Assembly (NCBI GenBank): GCA_030040395.1
Contig: JASHTU010000219.1
Coordinates: forward strand, 1 to 11,653
DNA length: 11,653 nucleotides
From: Acidobacteriaceae bacterium
GTDB taxonomy: Bacteria > Acidobacteriota > Terriglobia > Terriglobales > Acidobacteriaceae
Direction: 5' to 3'
Both the position numbers and the translations under genes were made by a program. Numbering within the stretch: position 1 is the first letter of the stretch; the number at the start of each line of letters is the position of its first letter. Under the pieces are notes generated by a model, which saw nothing but the letters and a program-made list of their open reading frames with translations, was not told the DNA's origin and made no database searches. Below are positions 1,195 to 11,653 of the stretch, piece after piece.

Positions 1195-4100
1195 TCAGTG
1201 CGCCACGGTGGAGACGCAGCGCATTCCGCTCAGGCCGCCGGGCATTAAGAGACCGGCGTTGGGGCCGGAGAGCTCGAGATGGACCACCAGGGGGACACCG
1301 CCGACCTGAATGGGGGTGTTCGCGATCTCCAGCGGGTAATCCAACCGCTCCAGGCTCCCCTCCTTTTCCACGTGGCCCTTGCCCAGCAGATGGAAGACCG
1401 CCCATGGCCCGGTGAACTGCAAGGGGAGGCTGCCGGAGCCGTAGTTCGCGGTCAAAGACGCCTGCTGGCTGTTGGCCAGCGACCAGGCAAATTGCTTGGA
1501 AACGTCCGAGCCGGTGAGATTCTGCGCGTCTACCTGGAAGGTGACGCTTTGAATTCCCTTGGCGGGCAGGATATGAACCGAGAAGGCGAGGCCACCCGAG
1601 CCGCCTGTCGGGTAGAGCAGCGCGGAGAGTCCCGCGGCGCGATTGAAGAACTGCACGAACGCGGGGTTGACCTGCATAGGCGCTCCGGTGACGGGAACCC
1701 AGGTGGATCCCTGCTGGACCAGGAGCGGCTTGAGCGTAGTGTCGTAAAACTGCCAGAGCGAGCCGGAGCCGGGCTGCAGCAGCGCCGCCACTTCAGCCGA
1801 AGTGGCGTCGACCGATGAGCTTGGCGAGAAGGGGAATTTGGTCATCACCTGCGAGAACGTGGAGCAGAAGCCAGCTCCGCCCGCATTGGCCTGCTGCGGT
1901 CCGCGACCGCGCACCACTTCGTCCACGGAATTGATGGGCGCCTGTATGAGCGCCAGGGCGGTCTGGTCGACGTGGGCCTGGGGATCGAGATTGAAGGCCT
2001 GAGCGGTCTGGCTGGCGGCGGTGTGGGCCGCGGTAGAGGCGGTGATGATGGGGGTCACGGCGGCGGGATTTGTAGCCGCGGTGGGATCCTGCGCGACCTG
2101 CGCCACCGCAGCCTGCAGGGCGAGGAGTCCATTGACGTAATTCGTGTTTCCCGGGCCGATGAACTTATCGACGCTGCCCGGCGCAACCAGCGCCTGCGTG
2201 GGCTGGAACTCCTTGGCGATATCGGGGTTGGCGACCGCGGTGTTGTGGGAAACAAGGTAGAAAAGCTCAAGCAGCGGGGAACTGGGATTGGAGAGCAGTT
2301 GCAGTTTGGCTCCGGCGTCGGCCAGGCTGCGGTATTTGACCACCTGAGCCGAGTGCAGGAAGGCGCGCCACTCGGATTGGTAGTCGCCCGTGTAACGCGT
2401 GGTGAGCTGCTGAGTCAGGGTGGCGCGGTCGAGCGACGGCGGGGCCTGGTTGCCGAGCACCCACACTTCTCCGCTGAAGTAACGGTCGGGGTGCTGGATG
2501 GCGTCCTGCATGAAAGTGTAGCCGGTGTTGGTATAGGCGCCATTGACGACGTGCGCGTCGACGACGGTGGCGGAGGAGCCGGGATACATGCGATTGAAAT
2601 CGACGGAGGGCGAGGCTTTATCGGCGGCGGTGATCATTTGCTGGTAGATGCGCTCGAAGCCGCCGAAGGTGGCGAGATAGGTGCGCGCGTGAGTGACGGC
2701 GGAAGTGTCGGCGGCGATGCTGTACGGGTTGTTTTGCGGGAGTTCGGCGGCGTAGAACTCGAACTGCTGCGTGGCGAGCTGCTTTTGCTGTTCGGTGTCG
2801 GGAACGCGTCCGTTTTCCCAATACTGCGTCAGCACGGGAACCAGAAAGTCAACCGTGCTCTTCTCGGGATTGGAGGTGGTGATGAGATAGGCCTTGAGCG
2901 GATTGTAAGCGGCTGAATAATCCGCTCCCGGCGCTGACGTGGCAGGCAGGGCGTTGAGAGTAGAGACCAGGTTGGCTTGGGTGTTGGCCAGCAGAAGGCG
3001 GCGGAAGCGATCGAAATAAATGCTGCGCGCCGCGGGAAGCAGGCTGCCGCCGTGATAGAGGCCGAAGCGGTACAGCAGGGGCGGTCCGTTGCGCCGGTAG
3101 CCTTCCAGCCGCACCACCACGGCGCGGAGCTGGTCGAGCGAGGACAGGGTCTGGGCGCCGGCGAGCGTAGCGGGCGAAATCGTAGTGGCGGGAAGGGCGT
3201 CGGCGGATGAGACCACGGCGTGTTCGAGGCGGGAGTTGTTGGCCCAGGACGCGGTGAGGCACAAAGCGTAGATCAGCAGCAGCGCGGAGGCAGAGGCGAA
3301 GACAACGCGGCGGAGAAGGTGGGTTCTGCGGCTGTCGCTGGTGACGGCCAGGGCGCTGCGGTCTTCGAGAATGACGTTGGGAAAAAGCCGGGGCAGAAAA
3401 CACCACTGAGCCTGCTTGCGGGCGATGGTTTGGGGCGCTTGCGCCACCGCCGCGGCCCGCATCTGTTCGGCCGAAAACATGCGCGTGGCGCCGGATCCGG
3501 CGGGCGCGGCCTGGGGCGCATGGGCAGCGGCGGCAACAACTTCCTCGATCACGTGGGCGCGTACCCCGGTGCAGTAAAGGCCGCGCAGGTAGGGATTGGC
3601 GTTGAGATGACTGGGGCGCGCCAGCTCCACCAGGTAGGACGCGAGATTGTTGCGCAGCTTGCGGAATTCGCGCGGGAACTCGTAGACGGGATCGATATTT
3701 CGCTGGTCGTTTTCGCGGGAGAGCAACTCGAGGCGGAATTCTCCGAGGGCGAAAATGATGCGATCGAGGGCGGAAGCCACCTCGCTCATGGCTTTTTCCG
3801 CATAGAGGCCGCTGGAGACGCCGTGGCGCGGAAAAGCCATGCCGAGGGGTTGGGCAACCTCTTCGTTGGAGAGATTGCGGACGAACTCAGTGAAGTGAGG
3901 GACGCGGTCGAGCTTGGTGAGGATCACATAGACCGGCACCTCGGTCCCGAGCTGTTGGGCGAGGTCGCGCAGCATCTGGTTGGTGGAGCGCGCGGCGGCT
4001 GCGGCCGCGTCTGCCGCACCGGCGCCGAGAAACTGCTCACTGCTGACGCAGACCACGGCGGCTCGCACCGGAGCTTGCTTGCCGATGGCGGAGCGGATGG

Positions 4101-4626
4101 CTCTGGGCCGGGTTTTGCGGATCAGGCGCTGCCAGAGCGCGGGGTTTTTGCGCACCGCATCGCCGCTTTCGACAAAGACCGAAGCCTGGGTGTACCAGAG
4201 GTTGGCGACCGGAGTGGCGGCGACGTCCTGGTCGCGGTAGACCTGGCCGGCGAGGAGCTCGGGATCGAAGCCGGATTTAATGACGGCGGTGGTTTTGGCC
4301 GCATTGGCGTCGCCAAGGATGTAGAGCAGGGGCAAAGTTTCAAGAGATTTGGGGCCGGTGCGCTGGGCGGCGGCGAGACGTTTTTCGGCCTCGCGCAGCA
4401 GAGTGTCGAGATCGGAGCCACCGGGTAATTTCAGCGCGGCCGCGTCACGCCGCTTTTCCTTGAAATAGAGAAAGAGGATGACGGCGGCAGCCACGGCTCC
4501 GAGCAGCACGAGCAGGATGCGCAGGACGAGAAGCGCGGTTCCGGCGACGCCGAGCAGAGGCCCGGCGAGCCAGGCCAGCACGATGGAGAGAATCAGGATC
4601 AAAGCAGAAACAAGAATGGGCAGCAC
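1195..4626 (-). CDS. tssM: T6SS inner-membrane protein TssM (IcmF family), atypical NTPase site
   Basis: TssM is the large inner-membrane core of the T6SS membrane complex and partners TssL. The 1143-aa length is normal. Hydrophobic helices at about 3-21 and 34-54 and a third at about 438-461 give the usual topology, with a cytosolic domain between helices 2 and 3 and a large periplasmic C-terminal part. The cytosolic domain has a P-loop-like GDANAAKTT (105-113), a VILTKLDRVPHF segment (234-245) equivalent to the NKxD motif, and LRGLYCTGVR (347-356), typical of TssM. GPWAVFHLL near residue 1073 is the conserved C-terminal IcmF signature. The P-loop has Ala in place of the usual Gly before Lys, and the expected DTAG motif is replaced by VESG (152-155), so nucleotide binding or hydrolysis may be altered. 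The start is GTG at 4626-4624, with AGGAG at 4634-4638 overlapping the tssL stop. An Ala-rich linker (362-400) precedes helix 3. Confidence 0.95.
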   Translation of the reverse strand: MLPILVSALILILSIVLAWLAGPLLGVAGTALLVLRILLVLLGAVAAAVILFLYFKEKRRDAAALKLPGGSDLDTLLREAEKRLAAAQRTGPKSLETLPLLYILGDANAAKTTAVIKSGFDPELLAGQVYRDQDVAATPVANLWYTQASVFVESGDAVRKNPALWQRLIRKTRPRAIRSAIGKQAPVRAAVVCVSSEQFLGAGAADAAAAAARSTNQMLRDLAQQLGTEVPVYVILTKLDRVPHFTEFVRNLSNEEVAQPLGMAFPRHGVSSGLYAEKAMSEVASALDRIIFALGEFRLELLSRENDQRNIDPVYEFPREFRKLRNNLASYLVELARPSHLNANPYLRGLYCTGVRAHVIEEVVAAAAHAPQAAPAGSGATRMFSAEQMRAAAVAQAPQTIARKQAQWCFLPRLFPNVILEDRSALAVTSDSRRTHLLRRVVFASASALLLIYALCLTASWANNSRLEHAVVSSADALPATTISPATLAGAQTLSSLDQLRAVVVRLEGYRRNGPPLLYRFGLYHGGSLLPAARSIYFDRFRRLLLANTQANLVSTLNALPATSAPGADYSAAYNPLKAYLITTSNPEKSTVDFLVPVLTQYWENGRVPDTEQQKQLATQQFEFYAAELPQNNPYSIAADTSAVTHARTYLATFGGFERIYQQMITAADKASPSVDFNRMYPGSSATVVDAHVVNGAYTNTGYTFMQDAIQHPDRYFSGEVWVLGNQAPPSLDRATLTQQLTTRYTGDYQSEWRAFLHSAQVVKYRSLADAGAKLQLLSNPSSPLLELFYLVSHNTAVANPDIAKEFQPTQALVAPGSVDKFIGPGNTNYVNGLLALQAAVAQVAQDPTAATNPAAVTPIITASTAAHTAASQTAQAFNLDPQAHVDQTALALIQAPINSVDEVVRGRGPQQANAGGAGFCSTFSQVMTKFPFSPSSSVDATSAEVAALLQPGSGSLWQFYDTTLKPLLVQQGSTWVPVTGAPMQVNPAFVQFFNRAAGLSALLYPTGGSGGLAFSVHILPAKGIQSVTFQVDAQNLTGSDVSKQFAWSLANSQQASLTANYGSGSLPLQFTGPWAVFHLLGKGHVEKEGSLERLDYPLEIANTPIQVGGVPLVVHLELSGPNAGLLMPGGLSGMRCVSTVAH

Positions 4627-4633
4627 GGCAAGG

Positions 4634-4638
4634 CTCCT
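4634..4638 (-). promoter_or_regulatory. Ribosome binding site fixing the GTG start of tssM
   Basis: On the minus strand AGGAG lies 7 nt before the GTG at 4626 and overlaps the TAG stop codon of tssL (4637-4639). This supports the GTG start over later in-frame starts and implies coupled translation of tssL and tssM. Confidence 0.7.
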
Positions 4639-5323
4639 ATTGCGTTGTCAGTCCGGCGTTCTGGGCCTGTGCCGCTCCGGAGCCGAGCATCAGTTCGTAT
4701 CCGCCGAAAGCGACGACCACGAGGCCGGCCAGAACGCAAGTGGCGATGAGCAGGGCATGCGTCCAGGGATCGCGGGCGCGAGCGGGCGGCACTTCCGGCG
4801 CGGGGACGGGCGGCATGAGACAAGCGGCGCCGCGGATGCGTTCGATTTTGCCGCGGGCCATACGCAGCACCTGGTGCAGTTCGCCGGAGTCTCCCAGGGC
4901 GTAGCGGCCGCGGTAACCCATTTGCAGGCACAGGCAGTGCAGTTCGAGGGCGTCGGCGGTTTCAGCGGAATCCTGGGCGTTCAAGAGAGATTGCAGGTTG
5001 CGGAAGAAAGCCTCGCCAGCGAGATGGCCGCCAAACAGCTCTTCCTGCAACGGGCGACGCGCCCAGTCGGCAAAGACGGGGCTCTGCAGGTTGAGGACGC
5101 TCTCATCGAGAAAGGCGACAGCGGCGAAGACGCCCATCTGCACGGCGTCGCTGGAATAACCCAGAGAGCGCGCCTCCTGCATGGCCGATTGCAACGAACG
5201 GCGCATTTGCGCGCGGAAACTCTCCGAGTCCTGAACCTGCTGGCGTTGAAAACGGACCCGGACGATGGCGGTCAGGGCTTCCTGGAAGCAAAGGGCAAGA
5301 TTGTTCACCCGTGCGGTGCTCAT
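4637..5323 (-). CDS. tssL: T6SS inner-membrane protein TssL (DotU/IcmH family)
   Basis: TssL is a cytosolic hook-shaped domain anchored by one C-terminal membrane helix; it binds TssM and the TssK baseplate adaptor. The 228-aa protein shows the DotU family pattern: AFLDE (70-74), Trp87, LQEELFG (92-98), GEAFFRNL (103-110) and LELHCLCLQMGYRGRY (126-141). A Pro-rich linker (171-181) leads to one hydrophobic helix at about 188-208 and a short tail of about 20 residues. There is no OmpA-like peptidoglycan-binding extension, so wall anchoring must come from another protein if present. Its ATG (5321-5323) overlaps the TAA of tssK by one base (TAATG), and tssM follows 10 nt after its stop, so tssK-tssL-tssM is a tight operon. 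Confidence 0.95.
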   Translation of the reverse strand: MSTARVNNLALCFQEALTAIVRVRFQRQQVQDSESFRAQMRRSLQSAMQEARSLGYSSDAVQMGVFAAVAFLDESVLNLQSPVFADWARRPLQEELFGGHLAGEAFFRNLQSLLNAQDSAETADALELHCLCLQMGYRGRYALGDSGELHQVLRMARGKIERIRGAACLMPPVPAPEVPPARARDPWTHALLIATCVLAGLVVVAFGGYELMLGSGAAQAQNAGLTTQ

Positions 5324-6675
5324 TACGATCGCTCCACGATCACGGTAAGGTCGAATTCGGGCTTGGTGATTTCACCGGGGATATAGATGCCCACGTTGCG
5401 GGTCTGCTGGATGTGTTCCCAACAGGGGCCGGTGGTTTCTAAGGCGAAGTATTGCATGTCGGCCTCGGCGCGCAGGGCGGAGGGGGGCACGGAGAGATGG
5501 TTGAGCGTCATGCCGGGCAGGGCGCGCTTGACCAGTTCGGGCACGAATTTGAGCGAGCACACCTTGACCAGTTTGGGAACCAGCATGAGGAGATCCGACT
5601 CGCCGAGAGCCGAGCGCACGCCCAAGACCCAGCGCGCGTGGCGGAAACAGCGCTCATCGCGGACTTCGGCGCCGTGGATGTACGGCTCGACGGGGTGGAA
5701 GTCGAGCGAAACGGTGTTTGACGGCACCACGATTTCAAGATGGCGGCGGATGTGCGCGTCGAGGGCGCGAAATGCGGGGCCGGGATTGCGATGATCGTAG
5801 GCGGGAAGCTGGCGCGGGTCGGAATCGACGGCGAAGGTGCACAAGGCGCCGGCCAGCCGCGAGAGCTCGATGAAGACATCCTCGGGATGGGCGTGGCGGG
5901 TGTTGGTGAGATGTTGAAGCGGCGGAATGGCGCTGTGCAGCGCGTGCAGAAACCAGTAGTTGGCGACGTCGAGAGCAGCCGTCCCGGCTTCAAACCTGCC
6001 GTGGCGGCGCGCGGAGCGGGCGATGACGGCGCTCTTTTCTCCGATGGCGTCGAGGAGACGGCGCACCAGCAACATAAGGGTCTCACAGGCGCTGATGCGC
6101 AGGCAGGGCGGGACAAATTCCTCGTCCGAAACCAACTGCCCGCGGCCGTCGCGCAGCACCTGCGCAAGCGGAATGGAGAGCAGGTCGGGAGTCAGTTCGG
6201 CTTCAGTCATCAGGCGGATGTTTTTCTGCCCCAGATCGATTTCGCGCTCGTCGATGCCGTTGGTCTCGTCGCGCAGCAAGCGCTGCATGCGCGCAAAGCG
6301 GCTGCTGTTGGGCGCGGCGGCCAGGTCGCAGTCGAAGCCGTTGTCGCGCCGGCGAGGGACGGTGAGGTAAACGGGAAGCATAGCGTCGGTGGAAGGGAAA
6401 ACTTCCAGCAAATTGCGGATGGGCGGCGGCGGATCGGAATTGGGCAGTTCGAAGACCAGGCCGTCAGGAAAAATGCCCGAAGCGTGCAGAAGAGCCGCGG
6501 TTCCGTTGCGCAGGGCCTTGGGATCCAGTTCGGCGTGCAGCAATCCCCACGGCTCGCGCCACAGGCTGGCGGCGAGGAAGGCCATAGAATCTTCGAAATA
6601 TCGGCTTTGCGTCTGGAAATGGTGAGGGCTCAGATACATGCCTTCGGACCAGACGACCCGCGAGAGGAATTTCAT
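5323..6675 (-). CDS. tssK: T6SS baseplate protein TssK, copy 1
   Basis: TssK trimers link the T6SS baseplate to the TssL/TssM membrane complex. This 450-aa protein is full length. It begins with the family N-terminus, W9 and LSPHHFQ (15-21), followed by GIFPDG (67-72), FVPP (187-190), VPSN in the middle domain, RALPGM, and the C-terminal-domain block QYFALETTGPCWE (408-420) and GEITKP near the end. I chose the ATG at 6675 because it puts the conserved N-terminal motif at its usual distance. An in-frame TTG at 6696 would add seven residues that do not look like TssK. Neither start has a convincing Shine-Dalgarno. It is the first gene of a tssK-tssL-tssM operon and overlaps tssL by one base. 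A second TssK gene at 8564-9919 has the same motif positions. As the copy beside tssL and tssM, this one is the likelier membrane-complex adaptor; that is inference. Confidence 0.93.
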   Translation of the reverse strand: MKFLSRVVWSEGMYLSPHHFQTQSRYFEDSMAFLAASLWREPWGLLHAELDPKALRNGTAALLHASGIFPDGLVFELPNSDPPPPIRNLLEVFPSTDAMLPVYLTVPRRRDNGFDCDLAAAPNSSRFARMQRLLRDETNGIDEREIDLGQKNIRLMTEAELTPDLLSIPLAQVLRDGRGQLVSDEEFVPPCLRISACETLMLLVRRLLDAIGEKSAVIARSARRHGRFEAGTAALDVANYWFLHALHSAIPPLQHLTNTRHAHPEDVFIELSRLAGALCTFAVDSDPRQLPAYDHRNPGPAFRALDAHIRRHLEIVVPSNTVSLDFHPVEPYIHGAEVRDERCFRHARWVLGVRSALGESDLLMLVPKLVKVCSLKFVPELVKRALPGMTLNHLSVPPSALRAEADMQYFALETTGPCWEHIQQTRNVGIYIPGEITKPEFDLTVIVERS

Positions 6676-6792
6676 AGCAATAAGGGCTGGTGGCAATGGC
6701 GCCGGTGAGCGGACCCCGGGTCAGGTCGATTCGCCGAGCCCGCGCTCCGCTCCCCAACCTGTCCTGACCTCGCTGCCATCAAGCGTGCTTGC

Positions 6793-6884: not shown

Positions 6885-8504
6885 ATGAATGCGTCCAGAG
6901 GTCCGTTCGATCAGCCGGATTCACGCGGGCCGGATCGCCCCGCCGGCGGGGAGGCTTCGAGCGCACCTTCGAGCGCCACGGGGATTTTTTCGACCGCTCC
7001 GGCGCATGACGACAAGGACTTGCTGGCGTCGCTTTTGGGGCAACCAACTCCGCCAGCGGCCCCGGCGCCACCCGCGCCCGCGGTCCCTGCGCCAGCCGCT
7101 CCGGCTCATGCTACGCCTGCCGCACCGGCTCAGGCTGCGCCGAGCGCTCCGCCCTCAACCGCGCCGGCCGTGGAACGGTCGCCGTCCGCTCCCGCCAGTC
7201 CCGGCGAGTTTACCCGGATGCTGCAGGCGCTGAGGACGCCCGAACCCAGCGCGGCGCCCGAGTCACAGCCATTTTCGCGGCCGTCGCAGGAGCTCGCGAA
7301 ACAATTCAGCCCGGTTTCCATGGACAAAAATCGCGCCAATGAGGCGCCGCCGGCGAGCGCGCCTAGCGCTCCGGGCAGTTTTACGCAAATGTTCAGCTCA
7401 TTGAGCGCTCCAGCGGCTTCCGCTCCGGCTGTAAGTTCGGCGTCTCCAGCGCCGGCAGCTTCCGGTCCGGCATCGAGCCCGGCTTCCACTCCGGCCTCGG
7501 GTTCGGGTGAATTTACGCGCTTGTTTCAAGGTCTTCCGCAAGAGAAGAGTGCAGCCCAGATGGCTGCTCCGCCTGTGGCCTTTCCCGCGCCAAGCCAAGA
7601 GCCAGGGGCATTCACGCGGCTGTTTCAAGGAGTTTCGCAAGAGAAGAGCGGGGCGGAGCCTGTGGCCGCGCCCGCGCCCAAGCCAGCGGCGAGTCAGGAG
7701 CCAGGCGCGTTTACGCAGATGTTTTCGCAGCCGGCCACACCGCAAGTCACGCAGGAGAGGGTGGTGGATTTTCTTCACTCCCAACCGGCGCCGGCGCGCG
7801 ATCTGCAATTTGCGACGGAACCGGTCAAGCCATTGGAACCGGCGATGCCGGCACAAGGCGGATTCACGCAACTGCTGCAGGCGCTGAACCAAGAGCCAGC
7901 GCCGAAGCGGACCGAGCCGCCCCTGGCTCCGGCTCCGATGTCTCCGCCACCCGCGGCGGCTCCGGCAGCGGGAGGATTCACGCAGCTTCTGCGCACTCTT
8001 TCGGCCGAGCCTGCGCCTGGGCCTCCTGCCGCGCCGCCTCAACCGCAAGCCTCGTTTACGCCAGCAGCCGCGCCGTCGATTGCCGCGCCCGCGGCAGGCT
8101 CCCCAGCGGTGTTGCCGCCTCTTCCTCAGCCCGCCGCGAGCGGGCCAGGCGAGTTTACGCGGGTGATTTCAGGCTCGGCGCTCCGCGATCTGCAGGGCCA
8201 GGGAGCAGCGGCGCCACCACCGGCCGCGGCCGCTGCGCCGCCGAGCGCGCCGGCATGGACCCCTCCCGGGGCTCCCAAGCCCCCAGCGATGCCGCCTCCG
8301 CAACCGCCAGCCGGGGCGGCGCCTCATTTCGCGCCGCCGGCATTCGCCTTTCCCATCCCACCAACCCCGACGCCGCCTCCGGTTGCGGCTTCCCCGCCGC
8401 CGACCAACCCGCTGCAGAAGTATCTGCCGCTGATCCTGGTGCTGAATGTTTTCCTGATGCTGGCAATCGTGCTGATTCTGGTCTTCGTCCTGCACCACAA
8501 GTGA
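6885..8504 (+). CDS. Tail-anchored Pro/Ala-rich protein with eight GxFT[RQ] motifs, T6SS-associated, function unknown
   Basis: I do not recognise a named family. The 539-aa protein has three parts. Residues 1-106 are polar then Pro/Ala-rich, with one ordered-looking segment (HDDKDLLASLLG, 41-52). Residues 107-431 carry eight short motifs of the form G-x-F-T-[RQ]-[LMV]-[LFI], at 107, 164, 208, 241, 274, 325, 363 and 422, separated by 33-59 residues of Pro/Ala/Ser-rich, probably disordered linker. Residues 432-512 are almost purely Pro/Ala. Residues 513-536 form one strong hydrophobic helix, followed only by HHK, so the protein looks tail-anchored in the inner membrane with everything else in the cytosol. 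There is no signal peptide. An in-frame TGA at 6879-6881 rules out earlier starts. It lies between two tssK genes and runs divergent from tssK1. A scaffold or tether that presents many copies of a peptide ligand is the simplest reading, but this is inference. Confidence 0.85.
   Translation: MNASRGPFDQPDSRGPDRPAGGEASSAPSSATGIFSTAPAHDDKDLLASLLGQPTPPAAPAPPAPAVPAPAAPAHATPAAPAQAAPSAPPSTAPAVERSPSAPASPGEFTRMLQALRTPEPSAAPESQPFSRPSQELAKQFSPVSMDKNRANEAPPASAPSAPGSFTQMFSSLSAPAASAPAVSSASPAPAASGPASSPASTPASGSGEFTRLFQGLPQEKSAAQMAAPPVAFPAPSQEPGAFTRLFQGVSQEKSGAEPVAAPAPKPAASQEPGAFTQMFSQPATPQVTQERVVDFLHSQPAPARDLQFATEPVKPLEPAMPAQGGFTQLLQALNQEPAPKRTEPPLAPAPMSPPPAAAPAAGGFTQLLRTLSAEPAPGPPAAPPQPQASFTPAAAPSIAAPAAGSPAVLPPLPQPAASGPGEFTRVISGSALRDLQGQGAAAPPPAAAAAPPSAPAWTPPGAPKPPAMPPPQPPAGAAPHFAPPAFAFPIPPTPTPPPVAASPPPTNPLQKYLPLILVLNVFLMLAIVLILVFVLHHK
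7203..8177 (+). repeat. Eight degenerate GxFT[RQ] peptide repeats within the tail-anchored protein
   Basis: The copies read GEFTRMLQAL (107-116), GSFTQMFSSL (164-173), GEFTRLFQGL (208-217), GAFTRLFQGV (241-250), GAFTQMFSQP (274-283), GGFTQLLQAL (325-334), GGFTQLLRTL (363-372) and GEFTRVISGS (422-431). Gly1, Phe3, Thr4 and Arg/Gln5 are kept in all eight, while the linkers between them diverge freely in sequence and length. This pattern, conserved core in a low-complexity chain, is what a repeated short linear binding motif looks like. The phase is coding, so this is a protein-level repeat. Confidence 0.85.
7506..7703 (+). repeat. Two 99-bp in-frame tandem repeats (33 residues each)
   Basis: Codons 208-240 and 241-273 form two adjacent 33-residue units. 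Both begin with G-x-FTRLFQG, continue with QEKS at the same offset and end with SQEP. The third motif follows directly at residue 274. The DNA is also alike (for example gtttcaagg and gcaagagaagag occur in both). This suggests a recent tandem duplication and shows how the motif array grows. Confidence 0.8.
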
Positions 8505-8563: not shown

Positions 8564-9919
8564 TCAGGTGGGGTTGGCGAAGAGGAAGATCAACTCCATA
8601 TCGGGATTGGTAATCTCGGCCGGCATGTAGACGGCGAAATTGCGCGCGCGCACGACCGCTTCCCACACGGGGCCGCTCTGTTCCAGGCTGAAGTACTGGT
8701 AGCGCAGTTTTACCGGAATTGCCCGGGGCGGAACGGGGACATGGGTCAGCTTCAAGCCGGGCAGCGCTTGGCGGATGAGCTGTTCGATGTGGGTGGCGGA
8801 GCAGGCCTTGGCCAGGGCCGGAAGGCGGGCGATAAGATCGGCCTCGCGCATATCGGAAGAAACGGCCAGATAGGGGCGCGAGTTTTCGAAATAGCGGTCC
8901 TTGTCGATGGCCGTGGCATAGATGGAGTCGCGCAGCGGCTTAAGGGGCAGGGCCACGAAATTGCTGGGGACCACTGTCTCCAGCAGCTCCGCGATGGTGG
9001 CGTCGAGAGCCATGAAGCAGACACCCAGGTCTTCGTGCTCATAGGTGGGCAAATCCCGGGGCTCGATTTTGGAAGAGAAGGTGGTGAGCGCTCCGGCCAG
9101 CGAGAGCATGTGGAGAAAAAGCGATTCGGGATGGAGATGCGAGGCCTCGAGCATGTGGCGCGAGAGGGGAAGATGGACGTTGATGGTGTAGAGCAGCCAG
9201 AAGTTGGCGATGTCGGAAGCGCTGAAGTCGGCGAGTGACTGGTTGCGCTGCCGCCGCGAGCCGGCCAACTGGCTGCTCCGCGAGACCAGGGTTTCAATCT
9301 GGCCGCGCAGGATGCCGGTGAGGAGTTCGTTGCCCTTGATGTTCAGGAGCGGAGGCACGAACTTGGGATGGTGACGGTAGGCGCCAGACTCGGTGCGCTC
9401 AATGCGGGCGACAGGAAGCAGGACGGCCCCTTCGAGGTTTTCGCCTTCGGCCAGGATCTGAAGGTTTTTGCGGGTGAGGGAAACCGGCTTTTCCACCCCA
9501 GAGCTGTTTTCGTCGCGCAGCATCTGCAACTCCGCGTAAAAGCGGGTGCTGGCGCCGCTCTGCTGGAGCGCGATGTTGATGCCGCCAGGCCGGTCCTGGG
9601 GAACGCCCAGGAAAAAGGCGCATTCGCTTCTGCCGTCGGCGAAGCATTCGTCGAGGGTGCGCGAGGGGGGCGGGGCGTCGGATGCGGGCAGATCGAACAT
9701 GAGCCCGTCAGGGAAGATGCCCCCGGCCTCCATGATGTTGAGCCGGCCCTGGCTGAGCCCAGCCGCATCGATCTGCAAGGAGGCAAAGCCCCAGTTGCGG
9801 AAAGACAGAGCGCCGGTGAGGAAGCGCAGCGTATCTTCAAAAAAACGGTCCTGGGCCTGCAGATGCTGCGGGGAGAGAAAGACCCCTTTCGACCAAACCA
9901 CCGGCTGTAACTGTCGCAT
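8564..9919 (-). CDS. tssK: T6SS baseplate protein TssK, copy 2
   Basis: This is a second complete TssK-family protein of 451 aa. It has W9 and LSPQHLQ (15-21), GIFPDG (67-72), FVPP (187-190), VPSN (317-320), QALPGL, QYFSLEQSGPVWE (408-420) and an AEITNP near the end. These positions coincide with those of copy 1 (450 aa), so the two are colinear paralogs along their whole length although much of the sequence between motifs differs. All three TssK domains therefore appear present, and nothing suggests decay. The ATG at 9919 has a good Shine-Dalgarno (AGGAG at 9928-9932, 8-nt spacing). The gene stands alone on the minus strand, convergent with the tail-anchored repeat gene and divergent from tssB. 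It could serve a second interface of the baseplate, form mixed trimers with copy 1, or serve a different partner such as the repeat protein; the sequence does not decide. Confidence 0.92.
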   Translation of the reverse strand: MRQLQPVVWSKGVFLSPQHLQAQDRFFEDTLRFLTGALSFRNWGFASLQIDAAGLSQGRLNIMEAGGIFPDGLMFDLPASDAPPPSRTLDECFADGRSECAFFLGVPQDRPGGINIALQQSGASTRFYAELQMLRDENSSGVEKPVSLTRKNLQILAEGENLEGAVLLPVARIERTESGAYRHHPKFVPPLLNIKGNELLTGILRGQIETLVSRSSQLAGSRRQRNQSLADFSASDIANFWLLYTINVHLPLSRHMLEASHLHPESLFLHMLSLAGALTTFSSKIEPRDLPTYEHEDLGVCFMALDATIAELLETVVPSNFVALPLKPLRDSIYATAIDKDRYFENSRPYLAVSSDMREADLIARLPALAKACSATHIEQLIRQALPGLKLTHVPVPPRAIPVKLRYQYFSLEQSGPVWEAVVRARNFAVYMPAEITNPDMELIFLFANPT

Positions 9920-10331: not shown

Positions 10332-10354
10332 GTGCGCGCGCGGGTGGCGCGCAC
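10332..10354 (+). promoter_or_regulatory. Stable GC-rich hairpin in the tssB leader
   Basis: GTGCGCGC (10332-10339) pairs perfectly with GCGCGCAC (10347-10354) around a 7-nt loop. It ends 9 nt before the G-rich Shine-Dalgarno-like stretch at 10364-10370. No T-tract follows, so it is not a terminator. A weaker stem, GGAAAA/TTTTCC, occupies 10273-10292 in the same leader. The hairpin may tune tssB translation or mRNA stability; this is inference. Confidence 0.5.
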
Positions 10355-10373
10355 GGGGTCTCCGGGGGGAAAA

Positions 10374-10895
10374 ATGGCTAGAGAAAGCACACAGCACAAG
10401 CTTGATCGCGTCCGTTCGCCACGCGTGCATATCACTTACGACGTCGAGATCGGCGACGCCATTGAACTGAAGGAATTGCCTTTTGTGATGGGCGTTCTGG
10501 GAGATTTGACAGGGCAGCCGGAGCAGCCGCTCGCGGCGCTCAAAGACCGCAAGTTCGTCGAGATCAATCCCGACAACTTCGACACGGTTCTGAAAGGGAT
10601 GCAGCCGCACCTGGCGTTCGCCGTCGAAAACAAGTTGAGCGACGATCCCAACGCGGGACAGGTGAAGGTGAACCTGAAGTTTGAGAGCATGGACGACTTC
10701 AGCCCCGAGAATGTGGCCAAGCAAGTGGGACCGCTCAAGGAGCTGCTGGATCTGCGCACACGGCTCTCCGATCTTCGCGGAAGCCTGCAGGGCAACGACA
10801 AGCTCGACGAAGCGTTGATGGAGGCAGTTTCGAACACGGAGTCCCAGGAAAAGCTGCGGGCTGAACTGGCCAAACCCTCCGGAGGTGACAAATGA
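10374..10895 (+). CDS. tssB: T6SS contractile sheath small subunit TssB (VipA family)
   Basis: TssB forms heterodimers with TssC that polymerise into the contractile T6SS sheath around the Hcp tube. The 173-aa protein has the expected length and signatures: RVHITYDVE (17-25), ELPFVMGVLGDLTGQ (34-48), RKFVEINPDNFDTVL (59-73), FESMDDFSPE (103-112) and LLDLRTRLSDLRG (124-136), the last being the C-terminal helical segment that meets TssC. I chose the ATG at 10374 because MAREST followed by the RVHITYD strand is the usual N-terminus; an in-frame GTG at 10332 would add 14 unrelated residues and lies within the leader hairpin. The start is preceded by a G-rich stretch (GGGGGGA, 10364-10370) at short spacing. 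Its TGA overlaps the tssC ATG. Confidence 0.96.
   Translation: MARESTQHKLDRVRSPRVHITYDVEIGDAIELKELPFVMGVLGDLTGQPEQPLAALKDRKFVEINPDNFDTVLKGMQPHLAFAVENKLSDDPNAGQVKVNLKFESMDDFSPENVAKQVGPLKELLDLRTRLSDLRGSLQGNDKLDEALMEAVSNTESQEKLRAELAKPSGGDK
10881..10885 (+). promoter_or_regulatory. Ribosome binding site of tssC
   Basis: A perfect GGAGG, 6 nt before the tssC ATG at 10892, lies inside the last codons of tssB. It supports high, coupled expression of the two sheath subunits. Confidence 0.75.
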
Positions 10896-11653
10896 GTGCG
10901 AATGATACGGCAGTTGCGGCGGTAAGCGAGAAAACAGCGGAAACCACGGAACAGGGGCTGCTCGACCAGATTGTGGCGCAGGGGCGCTTCACACGCGACG
11001 CGGCGACGCTGGAGCGCGGCCGCGACATGGTGAAGGAATTCGTGACCCAGGTGCTCGAGGGGCACATGACCGTGACGCGCGACGCGGAAGCCACCATCCA
11101 GGCCCGCATTGCGCAGATTGACCGGCTGATTTCGATTCAACTCAATGAAATTCTGCACTACCCGGCTTTTCAAAAGCTGGAGGCGACCTGGCGGGGCATC
11201 AAGTACCTGATCGACCAGTCGGAAACCAGCGAGATGCTGAAGATCAAGGTGCTCAACGTCTCCAAGCGCGAGCTGCTGAAGGATTTGCAGAGAGCCGCGG
11301 AGTTCGATCAGAGCGCGTTGTTCAAGAAGGTGTACGAAGAGGAGTTCGGGGTTTTCGGCGGAGCGCCGTTCGCCTCGTTGGTGGGTGATTACGAATTCGG
11401 CCGGGGGCCGGAGGATGTCGAACTGCTGGAGCGCATCTCCCAGGTGGCTTCGGCGGCGCATGCGCCGTTCCTGACGGCGGCCAGCTCAGAGTTGCTGAAC
11501 TTGAGCAGTTACACGCAACTGGGGGCGCCGCGCGACATCGGCAAGATTTTCGATTCCACCGAGTACGCGAAGTGGAAGAGCTTCCGGCAGTCGGACGATT
11601 CGCGCTACGTGGCCCTGACGCTGCCACACATTCTGGTGCGCGTGCCGTATGGA
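10892..11653 (+). CDS. tssC: T6SS contractile sheath large subunit TssC (VipB/EvpB family), 3' end outside window
   Basis: TssC is the large sheath subunit that ClpV recycles after contraction. The frame is open from the ATG at 10892, which overlaps the tssB stop as ATGA, to the last base, giving 254 codons of a protein usually near 490-500 aa. Family blocks seen are LNEILHYPAFQKLEATWRG (84-102), FGVFGGAPFASLVGDYEF (152-169), ISQVASAAHAPFL (182-194) and WKSFRQSDDSRYVALTLP (228-245), ending in the LVRVPYG strand. The variable N-terminal 20 residues are Thr/Glu/Ala-rich. The truncation is only the window edge; nothing suggests a broken gene. The remaining T6SS genes may continue to the right. 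Confidence 0.96.
   Translation, partial: MSANDTAVAAVSEKTAETTEQGLLDQIVAQGRFTRDAATLERGRDMVKEFVTQVLEGHMTVTRDAEATIQARIAQIDRLISIQLNEILHYPAFQKLEATWRGIKYLIDQSETSEMLKIKVLNVSKRELLKDLQRAAEFDQSALFKKVYEEEFGVFGGAPFASLVGDYEFGRGPEDVELLERISQVASAAHAPFLTAASSELLNLSSYTQLGAPRDIGKIFDSTEYAKWKSFRQSDDSRYVALTLPHILVRVPYG

Follow-up and report, generated by a model that had tools for sequence, protein, structure and literature searches.

The 11,653-nucleotide stretch of Acidobacteriaceae DNA analyzed here (assembly GCA_030040395.1, contig JASHTU010000219.1), referred to below as the window, contains genes of a type VI secretion system (T6SS). Between its two tssK genes, and opposite in strand to both, lies an open reading frame (ORF) that starts with ATG at position 6885 and encodes P0001, a protein of 539 residues with eight copies of the motif GxFT[RQ][LMV][LFI] and one hydrophobic helix at its extreme C terminus (Kyte-Doolittle 3.3), followed only by HHK. 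These features and the position beside tssL and tssM had been described in the first-pass annotation of the window, and the ORF analysis, motif scan, hydropathy profile and Pfam assignments bear them out; the observation is correct and unusual. The searches likewise agree with its statement that the protein is not a standard T6SS component, as P0001 had no match in Pfam (E up to 0.1) or NCBIfam (E up to 0.001). PADLOC returned no match for P0001 or for P0089, a member of the kinase-lobe family described below. P0001 belongs to no family described in the searched libraries and papers, and as detailed below it is a conserved part of the two-TssK T6SS of Acidobacteriota. The gene and the elements of its product are as follows.

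6885..8504 (+): gene of the tail-anchored multi-motif protein P0001, 539 aa (ORF, translation, 87 homologs, no Pfam or NCBIfam match)
6972..6989 (+): N-terminal SATGIF element, residues 30-35, of the form T-x-x-F (conservation across 57 alignment rows: T 0.91, F 0.95)
7203..7223 (+): motif 1, GEFTRML (predicted helix 108-117)
7374..7394 (+): motif 2, GSFTQMF, the least conserved copy (alignment)
7506..7526 (+): motif 3, GEFTRLF (motif scan)
7605..7625 (+): motif 4, GAFTRLF (predicted helix 242-248)
7704..7724 (+): motif 5, GAFTQMF (motif scan)
7857..7877 (+): motif 6, GGFTQLL (predicted helix 326-334)
7971..7991 (+): motif 7, GGFTQLL (predicted helix 364-373)
8148..8168 (+): motif 8, GEFTRVI, within the conserved GPGEFTRVISGSALR block (alignment)
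8424..8495 (+): C-terminal transmembrane helix, the tail anchor (predicted helix 514-537, block mean pLDDT 92-97; hydropathy)

The motif occurs exactly eight times in P0001, starting at residues 107, 164, 208, 241, 274, 325, 363 and 422, and 20,000 shuffles of the protein contained it 0.004 times on average and twice at most. A motif not conserved between orthologs had been named in the first-pass annotation as evidence that would speak against its interpretation. The opposite was found in an alignment of P0001 and 56 relatives (57 rows), where identity to the query was 0.72 in the motifs and 0.69 in the anchor as opposed to 0.31 in the rest of the chain; motif 2 (residues 164-170) was poorly conserved, with 0.02 to 0.49 per position. 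The SATGIF element is perhaps a degenerate further copy, judging from its sequence. Among 100 motif-bearing proteins, selected as having at least three motifs with T or S (99 different ones, L007 and L136 being the same DNA) we counted 639 motifs, 3 to 14 per protein at a median spacing of 45. Motif position 4 was Thr in 634 and Ser in 5 of 664 core matches that did not require Thr, a figure inflated by the motif-based choice of proteins. Elsewhere in the T6SS proteins of the loci, the strict motif was present in at most three members per listed T6SS family, and the idea that another T6SS protein carries it as the native ligand for the site bound by P0001 was dropped as unsupported. The L209 family, with the strict motif in 19 of 22 members, is the kinase N-lobe family itself.

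In the AlphaFold2 (AF2) model of P0001 the mean predicted local distance difference test score (pLDDT) was 53. The membrane helix, which terminates at residue 537 of 539 with no conserved domain beyond it, was the confident part and the rest of the chain mostly was not; low pLDDT was read as disorder. Few other helices were predicted, four of which coincide with motifs 1, 4, 6 and 7. The hydropathy scan detected no hydrophobic segment above the cut-off besides the C-terminal helix, and neither the Pfam scan nor the AF2 model gave a kinase fold at the N terminus. P0001 thus has what is expected of a multivalent short-motif scaffold, namely several copies of one conserved motif on a disordered chain, and the unstructured chain with helices at four motifs fits multivalent short ligands as far as the model goes. 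The first-pass proposal of many short ligands on one chain is supported in this part, by a chain mostly lacking confident structure and by the helices at motifs 1, 4, 6 and 7, and its overall interpretation is supported in part. The codon-position GC of the ORF (0.73/0.66/0.68) is unlike that of the neighbouring genes, which is expected for a Pro/Ala-rich chain (43% Pro+Ala).

A search of 5.8 billion proteins, of which 7,996 candidates were scored (E up to 1e-3), yielded 87 relatives of P0001. All 87 had at least three motifs and 86 had the C-terminal hydrophobic helix; given these homologs and the features they keep, we judge the gene to be real. Its neighbouring genes in the window are as follows:

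1195..4626 (-): tssM, IcmF (Pfam PF06761 and others)
4637..5323 (-): tssL, DotU (Pfam PF09850, E 1.5e-42)
5323..6696 (-): tssKa, divergent neighbour and Ka-type reference (Pfam PF05936, E 2e-131)
8564..9919 (-): tssKb, convergent neighbour and Kb-type reference (Pfam PF05936, E 1.3e-136)
10332..10895 (+): tssB, sheath small subunit (Pfam PF05591)
10892..11653 (+): tssC, truncated by the window end (Pfam PF05943)

A scan of genome contigs gave 21 loci, all from Acidobacteriota by title. A tssK gene adjoined the motif gene in all 21; TssKa and TssKb flanked it in 15, and in the other six the gene lay at a contig end. The locus is found in the culturable relative Paracidobacterium acidisoli (L013). 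In addition we analyzed two overlapping genome samples, one of the class (399 genomes) and one of the phylum (297 genomes). The neighbourhoods comprised 93 stretches from 84 of the 97 family-positive class genomes, with G000, G155 and G231 examined separately and ten genomes left out. They contained 76 ORFs with at least three motifs, from 72 genomes that were all TssK-positive. A tssK gene was located within 3.5 kb of 69 of these 76 ORFs, on the opposite strand in 69/69 cases and on both sides in 35, so that homologs occurring mainly outside T6SS loci, a further finding that the first-pass annotation had said would refute it, were not observed. When TssK proteins were typed by similarity to those of the window, the 5' neighbour was TssKa for 62 of the 76 ORFs and the 3' neighbour TssKb for 41, while a single adjacent type despite at least 1.5 kb on the other side was TssKa in 20 cases and TssKb in one. 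The gene therefore goes with tssKa more than with tssKb, a point beyond the first-pass annotation, and its tightest genetic coupling is to TssKa-TssL-TssM. That the multi-motif family is a T6SS-associated component is well supported.

The expected co-occurrence with a second TssK was equally apparent. With TssK in class genomes called at E up to 1e-20, the family was present in 97 and TssK in 116 of the 399 class genomes (both 90, family only 7, TssK only 26, neither 276; Fisher p 2.6e-56). The family was found in 89 of 101 class genomes with at least two TssK matches versus one of 15 with a single match, and in this lone carrier (G397) the match lies at a contig end. In the phylum sample 51 genomes had a TssK match, five of these short (E 1e-6 to 1e-8), and all six with at least two TssK (G000, G155, G231, G100, G132 and G195) encoded a multi-motif protein; the one in G132 was first spotted by reading the locus and not by profile. 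No multi-motif protein was found in the other genomes of this sample, in which profile searches scored few candidates per genome. Of the 45 phylum genomes with a single TssK match, 20 supplied control stretches of 11-20 kb, and none of these 20 stretches had a two-motif ORF. Among family-only matches, the lobe stood alone in G517 and was part of a long, unrelated protein in G611, while G243, G310 and G510 were outside the stretches examined. A weak match in G056 (E 1.5e-4, internal stop), whose stretches had no multi-motif ORF, was judged to be due to chance.

The two TssK types were compared in a midpoint-rooted tree of 86 rows (random draws of 30 from the 82 Ka and 30 from the 72 Kb proteins, five from loci without the motif gene and 21 single TssKs, two of the single rows being long branches). 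All Ka proteins formed one branch (100/100) and all Kb proteins another (100/100), and the two together were set apart from the single TssKs (98/95), so that the simplest history of the two types is one old duplication. Over positions 221-240 (Ka numbering) the mean share of the commonest residue was 0.83 in Kb, 0.67 in single TssKs (16 rows) and 0.46 in Ka, and this lower conservation marks Ka as the changed copy. In E. coli each baseplate wedge has two TssK trimers, each bound to a TssG loop of its own, and TssL and TssM are bound by the head domain of TssK (PMC6300606, excerpt). Two trimers per wedge leave a place for two kinds of TssK, and by analogy TssKa and TssKb could fill these two places. 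The Acidobacteriota arrangement differs from the E. coli pair in that the latter is one gene product, whereas here two old paralogs are accompanied by an extra membrane protein. One locus of an Edaphobacter metagenome-assembled genome (L023:7961-17375) has a degenerate motif gene with two motifs that is surrounded by three TssK genes and a fragment of TssK, an array that is perhaps a local duplication.

Members of the wider family carry an additional N-terminal element. When a distant member from G195 that has this element served as query, 252 matches were obtained; among the 120 listed, all had at least three motifs, 116 had the C-terminal helix, and most begin with about 95 residues that resemble the N-lobe of Ser/Thr kinases. 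An N-lobe profile (E up to 1e-3) matched 55 of 61 multi-motif ORFs of other families in the class sample, 0/15 class-sample ORFs of the window's own family and 0/20 from the genome-contig loci. By eye an N-lobe is present in L159 and L165, which belong to the window's family and have variant motifs outside the search pattern. In the AF2 model of P0089, residues 1-90 reached block mean pLDDT values of 91-98, and every one of the 50 listed Foldseek matches of this lobe in the PDB was a protein kinase (two at E up to 0.001, the best with E 5.7e-4). At the sequence level, a profile search against PDB chains returned nothing at E up to 0.1, and BLASTP gave no significant similarity between P0089 and the locus kinase L145:2286-3440 (E 6.7 over the N-lobe). 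The homology of the lobe is thus based on the profile matches and the fold. HRDxK was found in 0/120 of the homologs listed, and the place of the VAIK lysine was Phe (63) or His (49) in all 112 homologs that could be placed by regular expression, so the lobe looks like a dead kinase lobe by its sequence. The locus kinase L145:2286-3440 has, by eye, a kinase domain, a Pro-rich linker and a C-terminal helix, and a kinase lies beside tssM in many loci. This likeness and the N-lobe in 55/61 members outside the window's family suggest that the ancestor of the multi-motif protein was probably a tail-anchored, PpkA-like kinase, a descent that the first-pass annotation had not considered. A single-protein search with a kinase-lobe member reached two genomes only and was replaced by alignments as too narrow. 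In the phylum sample the N-lobe profile also matches ORFs that read as kinases: it hit 37 of 297 genomes, and outside G000, G231, G100, G132 and G195 most listed matches were of this kind (spanning roughly positions 7-97 of the profile, in ORFs several hundred residues long, judged collectively). Separately, L209:9639-10124 (-) and L208 encode short proteins with an N-lobe and a C-terminal membrane helix, free of motifs, in stretches without a TssK match.

The reading we favour, to which we give about an even chance, is that P0001 is a lineage-specific, membrane-anchored multivalent scaffold that docks the two-TssK baseplate onto TssL-TssM. The C-terminal helix would hold the protein in the inner membrane, and some 500 residues of flexible, Pro/Ala-rich chain would extend into the cytosol, a placement suggested by the lack of any hydrophobic segment apart from the tail anchor. 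This chain may present several copies, eight in P0001, of a short amphipathic helix, GxFT[RQ](M/L)(F/L). Through many weak contacts these copies would attach to a surface that recurs in the baseplate or membrane complex and that is probably the TssKa trimer head or neck, and baseplates would thereby be captured and held at TssL-TssM during assembly. We favour docking to a TssKa-containing baseplate because of the tether-like anatomy and because TssKa, TssL and TssM are the closest genetic partners. A fuller version appears doubtful to us: two different TssK homotrimers bound to TssG in each wedge, TssKb at the ancestral place and TssKa at the second one, together with a dead, tail-anchored descendant of the system's own kinase as a multivalent platform that captures TssKa trimers, perhaps in a membrane condensate, constitutive motif binding having replaced phosphorylation-driven Fha clustering.

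Several observations weigh against docking of TssKa as outlined here. No tssK was located within 3.5 kb of seven of the 76 multi-motif ORFs (L118, L125, L140, L178, L180, L190 and L206, of which that in L118 lies close to a contig end), and a stricter match length raises the number to eight by adding L177, where the adjacent piece scores only 61 bits. Twelve of the 101 class genomes with at least two TssK gave no family match, and stretches of 4-6 kb in G447, G509, G562 and G516 had no multi-motif gene, which indicates that a TssK pair can exist without it. In G367 a protein with the kinase N-lobe has the motif copies GDFTRMF and GEFTRMF although the genome gives no TssK match, and G338 gives a weak one. 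In the T6SS loci L159, L165 and L202 the residues that follow FT differ or the motif has decayed further. TssKa-specific conserved positions were not clustered in one domain, so that no docking face on TssKa can be named, and TssKa is a candidate partner alongside TssL, TssM, TssA and ClpV. Finally, the C-terminal tail is basic (HHK, RHR), which under the positive-inside rule would speak for the opposite orientation.

Other explanations were weighed against the same data. The motif could be a phosphothreonine platform, its Thr phosphorylated by the Ser/Thr protein kinase encoded beside tssM and read by an FHA protein, so that P0001 would serve the threonine phosphorylation pathway as an activation scaffold with many sites. 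FHA domains favour pT-x-x-hydrophobic, and the near-invariant Thr of the motif (634 Thr and 5 Ser in 664) and its T-x-x-hydrophobic spacing, including that of the SATGIF element, would agree with this. Where there was room within 2.5 kb downstream of tssM, a kinase gene was found in 27 of 67 loci, a PP2C gene in 19 and either in 41, leaving 26 with neither. A precedent exists in Agrobacterium, where Fha reads phosphorylated TssL (PMC3953482, excerpt). PF00498, the only FHA profile searched for, had no match in three of ten carrier genomes (G572, 98% complete; G471, 99%; G000, 77%), and none of its 16 places in the other seven was at a T6SS locus. With two near-complete carrier genomes lacking PF00498 we disfavour this explanation and keep it as an unlikely rival. 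Alternatively, and with a slim chance in our view, the protein could be a pseudokinase regulator that controls the locus kinase or other Ser/Thr protein kinases by N-lobe pairing and membrane co-clustering, in which case the motifs would serve clustering and not baseplate docking. The N-lobe in 55/61 members outside the window's family, with its fold and profile support, the layout of kinase, linker and C-terminal anchor shared with L145:2286-3440 (by eye), and the PpkA condensates reported in Acidovorax (PMC12607579, excerpt) point in this direction. P0001 and its same-family relatives (0/15 ORFs; 0/20 from L004-L024), however, have no N-lobe by the profile and yet keep the motifs and the locus position, kinase genes lie near tssM in 27/67 loci only, and the BLASTP comparison was not significant (E 6.7).

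The motifs might instead bind another partner (TssA, ClpV or the sheath) or associate with each other in a membrane condensate, gathering sheath, recycling factors or free components and not TssK. Many short motifs along a chain with little confidently predicted structure would suit a condensate scaffold, but the genetic coupling is closest to TssKa-TssL-TssM and to the presence of two TssK, and we consider this explanation improbable. A low-complexity by-product or antisense artefact of a GC-rich region, as long antisense ORFs in the window and the Pro/Ala content might suggest, has virtually no standing, since it is already refuted by conservation (motifs in 87/87 and anchor in 86/87 homologs, at most two motifs in shuffles).

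Compared with known systems, the scaffold proposed above shares with PpkA the T6SS locus position and, in most of the wider family, a kinase N-lobe, a linker and one membrane helix; it differs in that the multi-motif family has neither catalytic lobe nor periplasmic domain and P0001 lacks the N-lobe. Of the features of PpkA-type proteins, P0001 has the single membrane helix and not the N-terminal kinase fold. Like the Fha/TssL switch of Agrobacterium, it would place a Thr-centred element on an inner-membrane T6SS protein (PMC3953482, excerpt), although that switch uses the single Thr14 instead of many copies and two near-complete carriers have no FHA match. CisA of the Streptomyces contractile injection system has a largely unstructured N-terminal region and one membrane segment, and has been proposed to bring the contractile particle to the membrane, perhaps via the baseplate component Cis11 (PMC12237407, excerpt). 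P0001, compared by description and not by sequence, resembles it in its N terminus, unstructured by low pLDDT, and its one membrane helix; CisA has a conserved domain past that helix, where only two or three residues are found here. TssW of Acidovorax is likewise an accessory T6SS protein that positions assembly (PMC12607579, excerpt).

Literature searches on TssK in Acidobacteria/Acidobacteriota, two tssK genes, tail-anchored or disordered T6SS proteins, the T6SS of Terriglobus/Solibacter and T6SS pseudokinases returned no such protein by title and abstract start among the papers listed, and the motif strings were not found in the literature searched; as far as these searches go, the multi-motif protein is new to print. 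How a cytosolic contractile baseplate finds and keeps to the membrane complex has been answered loosely so far. A conserved component that keeps a membrane anchor and a repeated motif, and that goes with a TssK duplication, offers a direct handle on this question, with one peptide and a handful of candidate partners, and points to a new docking part of the T6SS. It also suggests a regulatory kinase turned structural scaffold, and sets the Acidobacteriota, a large phylum of soil bacteria, apart by a T6SS variant of their own.

The neighbourhoods included further genes of note. A PrmC/HemK-like methyltransferase family was present in 18 of 105 loci, beside or between tssK genes and also where the motif gene is missing; in G509 and G562 the gene between the TssKs encodes a methyltransferase 32-35% identical to the PrmC-like L044:15455-16978. 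Examples of this family are:

L044:15455-16978 (-): PrmC/HemK-like methyltransferase gene
L232:2107-3705 (+): PrmC/HemK-like methyltransferase gene
L233:1781-3388 (-): PrmC/HemK-like methyltransferase gene

A TssB-TssC fusion-like family occurred in 35 of 105 loci, with Pfam VipA and VipB both matched in L048:14069-15619. Its member L176:1958-3331 (-) matched NCBIfam VI_chp_5 and VI_chp_2 below cut-off, and L176 additionally has separate tssB and tssC genes. L196 (G604) and L200 (G618) contain a second tssL-tssM locus, in a stretch without a TssK match, together with a relative that has GPSDFTRIV and ATQLF-type elements; both genomes have two TssK matches besides, and this locus may belong to a second system that has diverged further. 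In the window itself, a PadR-type regulator gene (138-455, +; Pfam E 3e-10) lies on the far side of tssM, and an unassigned 172-aa ORF (421-939) overlaps its end.

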